A stretch of 64,000 nucleotides of DNA, from positions 28,413 to 92,412 of the forward strand of contig CAMBGQ010000002.1 in the NCBI GenBank assembly GCA_945866215.1, written 5' to 3'. The position numbers and the translations under genes were made by a program. Source of the stretch: Opitutus sp. GAS368 (GTDB taxonomy: Bacteria; Verrucomicrobiota; Verrucomicrobiia; Opitutales; UBA953). Under the pieces are notes generated by a model that saw only the letters and a program-made list of their open reading frames with translations, did not search any database and had not been told where the DNA came from. Of this stretch, positions 14,318-52,535 are shown piece by piece. The stretch's first letter is position 1. Every line of letters starts with the position of its first letter.

Positions 14318-14345
14318 AAGGCCCCGGAATCCGGGGCCTTTTTAT
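14318..14345 (+). terminator. Intrinsic terminator
   Basis: AAGGCCCCGGAATCCGGGGCCTTTTTA. Confidence 0.85.
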
Positions 14346-16390: not shown

Positions 16391-17161
16391 TCAGCGACCG
16401 AAGATCAGGCGCCAGATCGAGAACTCCTTACCTCGGTCGATCGGTTCGGTCGGCGGCGTCTCCCAGCCGTTGGTCAGCAGGGTCAGGCGGCGGGTTTCCT
16501 CGCGGTTACGGTCTTGCCGCGTGGTCTTTTCGACCCACTCCGCGCGCACGACGCCGAAGGGGGTCGCGTCGGAGCGCCAGACGGTACCCTTGAAATCGAT
16601 GGTCTGTTTGGCGACGACCGGGGGATCAGTCACGGTGCTCGCCAGCATCTTGAGGCGTTCGCTGACGAAGGATTTCCCGGCGGCCTCGACCGTCTCCGTG
16701 GCCGGCGAATCGGCGGTGAGTTCGCTGGCGTAGGTCAGGTTCGCCCACTTGGAGACCCACGCGATGTCCTCGCGGGTCATGTGGTAGGTGCCCTTGACGG
16801 GGTTAGCGAAGACGATTTCCGCGGAATTTTCGATCAGCCGGCTGGCGAGGGCACGGTCCATGTCGTTTCTTACCAGTAGTCGAAGCGCCGCGCGCTCGCG
16901 CGAGCCCAGCCAGCCGACCGGCTCGACCGTGAGCCAGACATAGGCCTTGCCGTCGATGTCCATACCGGAGCGAACCGAGAGGCTCAGTTCGGATTTCGAG
17001 ACGACCTTACCTTCCCGGATCGTCTCGTACTGGTAGCGCGCCCAGGTACCCGGTTTTGGTAATTTTTCTGCGAAAATCTGCCACTGGGCAGGCGAAGAAA
17101 TCGCTCCCGCCAGCAGGAGGAGGAGAACAACGAGGCGGCGCATGGGCTGATTAATGGGCAT
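16391..17161 (-). CDS. Secreted hypothetical protein
   Basis: Signal peptide MRRLVVLLLLLAGAISSPAQ; codon usage consistent. Confidence 0.7.
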   Translation of the reverse strand: MPINQPMRRLVVLLLLLAGAISSPAQWQIFAEKLPKPGTWARYQYETIREGKVVSKSELSLSVRSGMDIDGKAYVWLTVEPVGWLGSRERAALRLLVRNDMDRALASRLIENSAEIVFANPVKGTYHMTREDIAWVSKWANLTYASELTADSPATETVEAAGKSFVSERLKMLASTVTDPPVVAKQTIDFKGTVWRSDATPFGVVRAEWVEKTTRQDRNREETRRLTLLTNGWETPPTEPIDRGKEFSIWRLIFGR

Positions 17162-17250
17162 TTATTGGCCTTTTGGCGAGCATCGACCCGCTGCAGGCTC
17201 CTTTGCCTTTGACTCTGCAAGTCTCCGCCTTTGAAGTCAGGGTCTTCGTC

Positions 17251-17340
17251 ATGGAATCCCTGGCCCAGTCTTCGACCTCCCTCCGCTCCGCGGCCGGTCG
17301 TGCCATCATTCCGGCGATCGTTACCATCATCGGGCTCTAA
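17251..17340 (+). CDS. Candidate leader peptide MESLAQSSTSLRSAAGRAIIPAIVTIIGL
   Basis: 29 codons; 5 Ile plus Val, Thr, Leu in the last 11; stop just before competing hairpins upstream of citramalate synthase. Confidence 0.6.
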   Translation: MESLAQSSTSLRSAAGRAIIPAIVTIIGL

Positions 17341-17408
17341 GCCCGCTGAACGGAACGCCCGACGGGCGACTCCCCGTTCCGCGGCGCCCGGAACGGCCCC
17401 CTCCCTTT
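17341..17408 (+). promoter_or_regulatory. Candidate attenuator with alternative hairpins
   Basis: CGGAAC (17351-17356), CCGTTCCG (17374-17381), CGGAACGG (17389-17396): middle segment can pair with either side; followed by CCCCCTCCCTTT. Confidence 0.55.
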
Positions 17409-17433
17409 ACACCTCTTTCCCACCCACACCACC

Positions 17434-18993
17434 ATGGCACGCTCCATCGAAGTCTATGATACCACCCTCCGCGACGGCTCGCAGGGGCAGGGCATTCATT
17501 TCTCCGTTGATGACAAACTGCGTATCGCCGCCGAGCTCGAGCGGTTCGGCATGACGTACATCGAGGGCGGCTGGCCAGGCTCCAATCCTCGCGACGTCGA
17601 GTTCTTTGTCCGCGCCAAGAAGATCAAGTTCAAGCATGCCAAGCTGGCGGCCTTCGGTTCGACCCGCCGCAAGGGCGTGCGCGCTGCCGAGGATGCCCAG
17701 GTACGCGGCTTGCTCGAGGTCGATACCCCGGTGGTCACGATCTACGGCAAGACCTCCGCCTTGCACGTCCGCGAGGTGCTCCGCTGCTCGCCCGAGGAGA
17801 ACCTGGAGATGATCCGCGACACGGTCGCCTTCCTGAAGTCCCATCGCCGCGAGGTCGTCTACGATTGCGAACACGCGATCGACGGCTGGAAGGATGATCC
17901 GGCCTACGCCATCGCTTCCATGCTCGCCGCCGTCGAAGGTGGTGCCGATCGCGTCGTCCTCTGCGACACCAATGGCGGCTCCTTGCCGGCCGAAGTCGCC
18001 GCGGCCACCCGCGCCGCGATCTCTGCGCTCAAGAAGACCCCCGTCGGCATCCATACACACGACGACGCCGGCCTCGGTCTCGCCAACGCCCTCGCTTCGC
18101 TCGAAGCGGGCGCTTCGCATGTCCAGGGCACTGTCAACGGCATCGGGGAGCGCACCGGCAACTGCGATCTCACCGCCGTCATCCCTTGCGCCCAGCTGAA
18201 GTTCGGCTGGAAGTGCGTCTCCTCGACCGCGCTCAAAAATCTCGCCGGACTTTCCCGTTTCGTCGACGGCGTCGCCAATCTCGCTCCCGATCCGCGTCGC
18301 CCGTGGGTCGGCACCGCAGCCTTTGCCCACAAGGGCGGTACGCACGTCGATGCCGTCCGTAAGTTCTCTGCCGCCTACGAGCACGTCGACCCGACCGTCG
18401 TCGGCAACGAGCGCACGGTGCTCGTCAGCGACCAATCGGGCCGCAGCAACATCGTCCTCAAGGCGAAGTCCCTCGGCATCGACCTCGACCGCGATTCTCC
18501 CGCCACCGCTACCGCGCTCGACGAGCTGAAGAAGCTCGAGCACGAAGGATGGAGCTTCGAAGACGCCGAAGCCTCGCTCGCCCTTCTGCTCCGCCGTCAC
18601 ATCGGCAAGAGCAAGGCCGCGCCCTTTGAGGTCGCCTCCTATCATGTCACCGCGCGCGGGACCAAGGGCTCTGCCTACTGCGAAGCCGTGGTGCGCCTGC
18701 GCATCGGCGGTGAGGAGGCCCTGACGGTGGCCGAGGGCGACGGACCGGTCCACGCTCTCGATCAGGCCCTCCGCTCTGCTCTCGTGAAGTCTTTCCCGAA
18801 GTTGGCGAAGGTCAGCCTCGTGGATTATAAAGTACGCATCCTCGGGGGGGCCGATGGTACCGCGGCCAAGACCCGCGTGGTCATCCGTTCCTCCGACGGC
18901 AAGGCCTCCTGGGGCACGGTCGGCGTCAGCGAAAATCTCGTCGAAGCCTCCCTTCAAGCGATTGTCGACGGTTACGCCCACGCACTATCCTGA
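17434..18993 (+). CDS. cimA: (R)-citramalate synthase (CimA, LeuA-like)
   Basis: YDTTLRDGSQGQGIHFSVDDKLRIA, EGGWPGSNPRD, THDDAGLGLANALASLEAGASHVQGTVNGIGERTGN; C-terminal LeuA-dimer-like region. Confidence 0.92.
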   Translation: MARSIEVYDTTLRDGSQGQGIHFSVDDKLRIAAELERFGMTYIEGGWPGSNPRDVEFFVRAKKIKFKHAKLAAFGSTRRKGVRAAEDAQVRGLLEVDTPVVTIYGKTSALHVREVLRCSPEENLEMIRDTVAFLKSHRREVVYDCEHAIDGWKDDPAYAIASMLAAVEGGADRVVLCDTNGGSLPAEVAAATRAAISALKKTPVGIHTHDDAGLGLANALASLEAGASHVQGTVNGIGERTGNCDLTAVIPCAQLKFGWKCVSSTALKNLAGLSRFVDGVANLAPDPRRPWVGTAAFAHKGGTHVDAVRKFSAAYEHVDPTVVGNERTVLVSDQSGRSNIVLKAKSLGIDLDRDSPATATALDELKKLEHEGWSFEDAEASLALLLRRHIGKSKAAPFEVASYHVTARGTKGSAYCEAVVRLRIGGEEALTVAEGDGPVHALDQALRSALVKSFPKLAKVSLVDYKVRILGGADGTAAKTRVVIRSSDGKASWGTVGVSENLVEASLQAIVDGYAHALS

Positions 18994-35923: not shown

Positions 35924-35952
35924 AAAGGGCCGCCCAGTGGGCGGCCCTTTTT
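35924..35952 (+). terminator. Intrinsic terminator after eno
   Basis: AAAGGGCCGCCC-AGT-GGGCGGCCCTTTTT. Confidence 0.92.
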
Positions 35953-50063: not shown

Positions 50064-50094
50064 AAAAAGCCCGGTGGAATTGCTTCCACCGGGC
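50064..50094 (-). terminator. Intrinsic terminator for VWA gene
   Basis: Minus strand GCCCGGTGGAA-GCAA-TTCCACCGGGCTTTTT. Confidence 0.88.
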
Positions 50095-52500: not shown

Positions 52501-52535
52501 AAAAGAAGCAGGCCGTCCGAAATCGGACGGCCTGC
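52501..52535 (-). terminator. Intrinsic terminator after amtB (52556..54061)
   Basis: Minus strand GCAGGCCGTCCGA-TT-TCGGACGGCCTGCTTCTTTT. Confidence 0.88.

Follow-up and report, generated by a model that had tools for sequence, protein, structure and literature searches.

The leader that precedes the citramalate synthase gene cimA in the analyzed window, a stretch of 64,000 nucleotides, is very probably an isoleucine-responsive, ribosome-mediated attenuator of this gene, as judged from comparative sequence analysis and RNA folding. The open reading frame (ORF), its Ile codons, their place relative to the antiterminator, the mutually exclusive RNA pairings and the link to cimA are conserved, and the main interpretation of an earlier note on this DNA, which had proposed such an attenuator, is supported by the comparison. 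We infer that the leader is transcribed, that ribosomes stall within it, that transcription terminates behind it and that it responds to isoleucine. The window stems from an uncultured member of the Opitutae, whose draft genome comprises 1.9 Mb and is 85.5% complete. For comparison, 80 related loci were used, and cimA was found in 63 of the 80 genomes of the family. The features of the region are as follows.

17209-17237, + strand: candidate promoter with -35 element TTGACT (17209-17214), 17-nt spacer and -10-like element TGAAGT (17232-17237)
17251-17340, + strand: leader peptide ORF of 29 codons, MESLAQSSTSLRSAAGRAIIPAIVTIIGL, stop codon TAA; start and Ile run conserved
17326-17331, + strand: proposed control codons Ile26-Ile27; further Ile codons at 17305-17310 and 17317-17319
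17331-17345, + strand: protector hairpin P1 around the stop codon, CGGGC (17331-17335) with GCCCG (17341-17345)
17343-17384, + strand: putative antiterminator P2, CCGCUGAACGG (17343-17353) with CCGUUCCGCGG (17374-17384), one mismatch
17356-17368, + strand: small hairpin P3 in the antiterminator loop, three pairs changed on both sides
17374-17396, + strand: putative terminator hairpin P4, CCGUUCCG (17374-17381) with CGGAACGG (17389-17396)
17397-17410, + strand: tail after P4, CCCCCUCCCUUUAC, no proper U-tract in the genus
17434-18993, + strand: cimA, citramalate synthase, proposed regulated gene; TIGR00977 equivalog with 646 bits (cut-off 450), PF00682 and PF08502

A conserved leader ORF rich in isoleucine codons

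A check of the sequence recovered the 29-codon ORF, its Ile codons and all motifs quoted in the earlier note exactly where they had been placed. Comparison of the cimA upstream regions revealed that both the Ile codons and the hairpins are kept in relatives. Among genus relatives with a readable upstream region, the leader ORF was present 5' of cimA in nearly all, with its stop codon 75-105 nt 5' of the gene. ORF lengths are 27, 29 and 30 codons, the ATG is kept, and all length changes are multiples of three, while three different stop codons (TAA, TGA and TAG) are used. Close to the end, 3-6 Ile codons are found, arranged in Ile-rich runs such as GRAIIPAIITIIGL, GRAIIPAIIIIGR, GRASIPAMIIIGL, GCALIPAIIIIGL and GRASITAIIGIIGL. 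Across the genus leaders, the Ile codons are ATT (102) and ATC (98) at about equal frequency. Averaged over the 33 distinct peptides of the genus, 5.0 of the final 12 codons are Ile, compared with 0.03 and 0.09 when the other two frames are read. Over the final 16 codons, the Ile total is 165, compared with 15.0 +/- 3.8 in base shuffles, none of 2000 shuffles being as high, demonstrating that the Ile content of the ORF is more than chance. Divergence per column and pair is higher at third codon positions (0.275) than at first and second positions (0.18). Both in the genus and in a distant group of leaders described below, the ORF is short and codons for the end product cluster in it.

Within the ORF, GGTCGTGCC (17296-17304, encoding Gly-Arg-Ala) is nearly invariant at the nucleotide level in the genus, a conservation that exceeds what control codons or the peptide alone demand. 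A pause hairpin or a role of the nascent peptide are candidate functions of this element.

All leaders of the genus contain TTTGACTC, and most of them have the -10-like hexamer at the same spacing (L057, L064 and L065 differ). Transcription would start near 17243-17246, a few bases 5' of the leader ATG. The conserved promoter-like pair at 17209-17237 would thus leave the leader ORF with almost no 5' UTR, and its translation would begin on a nearly leaderless message. A start downstream of 17340, which the earlier note had named as contrary to its proposal, was not indicated, since the promoter-like pair sets the predicted start just 5' of the ORF.

Further upstream, TTTTGGCGAGC (17173-17183) is located between cimA and a divergent gene on the minus strand (16391-17161) for which no Pfam or NCBIfam match was obtained. 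TTTTGGCGAGC is conserved in most genus members and may belong to the start of the divergent gene or constitute an operator.

Mutually exclusive pairings and the predicted switch

In 34 genus leaders, 99.4% of cells in P1, 99.1% in P2 and 95.6% in P4 were paired, whereas the length of P3 differs among relatives. P2 and P4 are mutually exclusive because the arm 17374-17381 is common to both, and three bases of P1 also belong to the 5' arm of P2. In the genus, P2 and P4 are too invariant for strong covariation, and little variation is expected of an arm that has to pair with two partners. In the whole window, only 16 stems are perfect over 8 bp or more and close a loop of 3-8 nt, and the hairpin at 17374-17396 is among them.

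The conservation of P4 supports the putative terminator hairpin of the earlier note, and the comparison likewise upholds its switch between antiterminator and terminator, though in another register: the conserved antiterminator pairs 17343-17353 with 17374-17384. The proposed pairing of CGGAAC (17351-17356) with 17376-17381 is lost in relatives (e.g. CGGGTC in L058), as is that of GCCCG (17341-17345) with 17363-17367, and both were rejected. In place of 17363-17368, which had been suggested as the 5' competitor, the stop-codon hairpin at 17331-17345 competes.

The effect of the ribosome was modeled by masked folds, in which ribosome-covered RNA was barred from pairing and the leading edge was assumed to lie 15 nt past the first P-site base. 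With the ribosome stalled at Ile26 or Ile27 of the window leader, P2 reached 0.95-0.96 and P4 at most 0.01; with the ribosome at the stop codon, P2 was 0.00 and P4 0.97. Folding without a ribosome gave 0.94 for P1, 0.16 for P2 and 0.47 for P4. In these computations antiterminator and terminator are exclusive and the choice between them is set by the position of the ribosome. The expected switch was obtained at equilibrium in 26 of the 31 genus leaders and failed in L042, L065 and L067-L069. When only the RNA up to the terminator loop was folded, pairing of the antiterminator core was 0.80 with the stalled ribosome versus 0.18 with the ribosome at the stop in the 31 genus leaders, and 0.81 versus 0.34 in 33 distant leaders. 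At full length, the terminator of the distant group is more stable than the antiterminator even when the ribosome is stalled, and the switch would therefore have to depend on kinetics (timing) there.

According to the mechanism that we propose, the leader peptide would be translated by a ribosome close behind the RNA polymerase. If charged tRNA-Ile is scarce, the ribosome would stall at Ile26/27 and cover the 5' arm of P1, leaving 17343-17353 free to pair with 17374-17384; formation of P2 would prevent P4, and cimA would be transcribed. If isoleucine is plentiful, the ribosome would reach the stop codon and cover 17343-17350, so that P2 could not form, P4 (17374-17396) would fold and transcription would end before cimA. 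Without translation, P1 would partly block P2 and P4 would again be favored.

Distribution of the leader and its distant relatives

A covariance model of the leader (R1) matched 46 of the 80 family genomes, all in the genus and adjoining cimA, and a whole-genome search returned essentially one locus per genome. Apart from these, R1 gave only two matches, one at the end of a contig and one that was weak (E 0.064). R1 detected no second leader at another gene of the source genome. Five more loci among the cimA relatives (L089, L093, L099, L102 and L109) have the same CGCTGAACG...CCCCGTTCCGCG...CGGAACGGGGTTTT layout. A wider model (R2) was built including them and was run, without regard to gene, on 390 and 385 genomes sampled from the phylum and the class. 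Outside the genus, strong matches (E below 1e-8) were confined to positions immediately 5' of cimA, in two other families of the class, f112 and f114. Of the f114 genomes, R2 matched 42 of 50 at E up to 1e-4, and 26 of the 28 good ones. Weak R1 or R2 matches elsewhere (E above about 1e-6; e.g. L135, L142-L167, L181 and L183-L190) have no cimA nearby and were set aside as plain terminators or chance, as was L141 (E 1e-7), which likewise has no cimA in its vicinity.

All 33 f112 and f114 loci that were checked lie at cimA and carry an Ile-bearing ORF. These ORFs end at a TGA in the antiterminator arm and have their Ile codons before it, e.g. PSLIASIIIGHPGR, GGSIIIAITISPDGRR, IPVIAILIADISAMIPVTPVR and MIGSIIIISGHRPC; L192, L197 and L203 have just one or two Ile codons before the TGA. 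In the distant group the ORF shows no conservation at the nucleotide level, yet its Ile codons persist. P1 is not conserved there, while 92.8% of cells in P2 are paired and one of its pairs shows compensatory changes, from CG to UA and from CG to AU. P4 in the distant group is a stem of about 14 bp followed by a U-tract, again with compensatory changes. Past its own stop, the frame of the window leader reads on as TAA-GCC-CGC-TGA, placing the CGC-TGA at which the distant ORFs end in frame, three codons past the stop. The distance from the Ile codons to this CGC-TGA is 6-10 codons both in the genus and in the distant group, where it holds for 32 of 33 distinct leaders. This common distance indicates that the position of a stalled ribosome with respect to the antiterminator was preserved although the stop shifted by three codons.

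These data bear on two other explanations. The leader could be a conserved structured RNA, such as a riboswitch, a T-box or a protein-binding leader, in which the ORF is incidental, and the near-invariance of GGTCGTGCC beyond the needs of the peptide would fit this idea. However, the persistence of Ile codons in diverged ORFs and the length changes by multiples of three argue against it, and no match to a T-box or other known RNA family in Rfam 15 was obtained for the window leader or six distant loci, making it very improbable. The other explanation, a chance ORF beside a chance hairpin, could draw on the weak promoter match and the missing U-tract, but it is already refuted, since the features are conserved among more than 60 distinct leaders from two groups and every one lies at cimA; we give it practically no weight.

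Putative termination in the genus

The sensor side of the proposed attenuator is much better supported than its outlet. The absence of a U run after the hairpin, which the earlier note had marked as its weak point, is real in the genus, whereas homologous leaders elsewhere have a U-tract. An intrinsic terminator with U-tract is absent from the leader of the window and most leaders of the genus; in the f112 and f114 leaders it is present, the tail after P4 being GGGGUUUU and forming a perfect U-tract terminator. Some genus members (L057, L064 and L067) have T-runs after the hairpin. Within the window, other strong hairpins are followed by T-runs, at 14318-14340, 35924-35950, 50069-50094 and 52508-52535.

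Rho-dependent termination at the C-rich tail was considered and rejected: no Rho (TIGR00767) above the cut-off of 509 was found in 56 genus genomes including the source genome, all of them drafts of which 22 are at least 90% complete, and the best score was 25 bits. Rho has possibly been lost in this streamlined genus. With neither a U-tract nor Rho found, the outlet in the genus would be either intrinsic termination with a poor tail or another effect of P4 that has replaced it.

One form of such an effect would retain the same sensor, with stalling at Ile codons deciding between P2 and P4, and let P4 act post-transcriptionally by lowering translation or stability of the cimA mRNA. The missing U-tract of the genus P4, the failure to find Rho in the 56 genomes and the use of canonical U-tract hairpins elsewhere in the window (e.g. 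14318-14340 and 50069-50094) are in line with this. On the other hand, 37 nt separate the end of P4 from the cimA start, which places the hairpin beyond the usual initiation footprint, and no Shine-Dalgarno sequence that could be hidden was seen before cimA; direct hiding of the cimA start by P4 was rejected on account of this distance. In addition, homologous leaders elsewhere possess perfect terminators and L057, L064 and L067 carry T-runs past the hairpin, and we regard a post-transcriptional P4 as unlikely. More broadly, and still as a tentative suggestion that we hold to be less probable than its contrary, the attenuator of this genus, seemingly devoid of Rho, might stop transcription or otherwise silence cimA through a G+C-rich hairpin that lacks the U-tract of its relatives, with ribosomes starting on an almost leaderless message. 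If true, this would be a working attenuator with a non-standard terminator. The genus leader raises a testable question, namely how termination proceeds without a U-tract and without Rho.

Comparison with known leaders

The enteric leaders of ilvGMEDA and ilvBN consist of a short ORF with branched-chain codons, followed by an exclusive antiterminator/terminator before the biosynthetic gene. The cimA leader shares with them the short codon-biased ORF and the exclusive structures, but here Ile stands almost alone, the target is cimA and the phylum is another one; no kinship in sequence is claimed.

Conserved upstream ORFs (uORFs) rich in regulatory codons, together with a terminator/antiterminator, have been described for the ilvB-II motif and uORF of Corynebacterium ilvBNC (PMC10272879) and for ilvB leaders of Actinobacteria (PMC1262725). 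Those leaders precede ilvB and have mixed Ile/Leu/Val codons, in contrast to the Ile codons before cimA, which gave no Rfam match. The Leptospira ilvB motif and the ilvB-OMG motif have been reread as uORFs (PMC10272879) and are, like the cimA leader, candidate uORF attenuators outside the model phyla. They are located upstream of ilvB and contain branched-chain and Thr codons (Val runs in Leptospira), and again Rfam returned no match for the leader reported here.

An attenuator of cimA, or any attenuator in Verrucomicrobiota, was not found in Rfam or in the open-access literature, a scope outside which most subscription journals fall. The cimA leader very probably represents a new family within classic ribosome-mediated attenuation, a kind of regulation already known. 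It would bring classic isoleucine attenuation to the citramalate branch point of a phylum that is large and mostly uncultured, and its unusually clean association with a single gene could offer a specific sensor of isoleucine supply for metatranscriptomes.

In the source genome, the stretch 5' of ilvB (L212, contig C24) contained no Ile-rich ORF on reading. It carries GGGGTA repeats followed by CCCCTA repeats within about 320 bases, which may form quadruplexes or have a regulatory role.

CimA as the likely route to 2-oxobutanoate

The gene behind the leader makes the amino acid of the control codons, as CimA starts isoleucine synthesis. Threonine deaminase (TIGR01127) was detected with 265-298 bits in many family members of g2-g4, most of which are without a close CimA. 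A threonine deaminase of usual score was not found in this genus (g1) or in g5, where matches reached about 70 bits or less and correspond to fold relatives; CimA is present in both. This distribution points to a switch of the 2-oxobutanoate route between g1/g5 and g2-g4. As the genus lacks the usual threonine deaminase, CimA is likely its sole source of 2-oxobutanoate, which would make isoleucine a fitting signal.

In a CimA tree, the genus groups with distant leader-bearing and leaderless Verrucomicrobiota and not with the g2 CimA of its own family. It is possible that cimA was transferred together with its leader; the long branches forbid a firm claim. When the presence of the leader was mapped on the tree, three changes were needed, compared with a mean of 19.5 after shuffling. 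A sister branch of CimA (L071, L072, L074, L078 and L087) has a short stretch 5' of cimA without a leader, and the attenuator has apparently been lost there.
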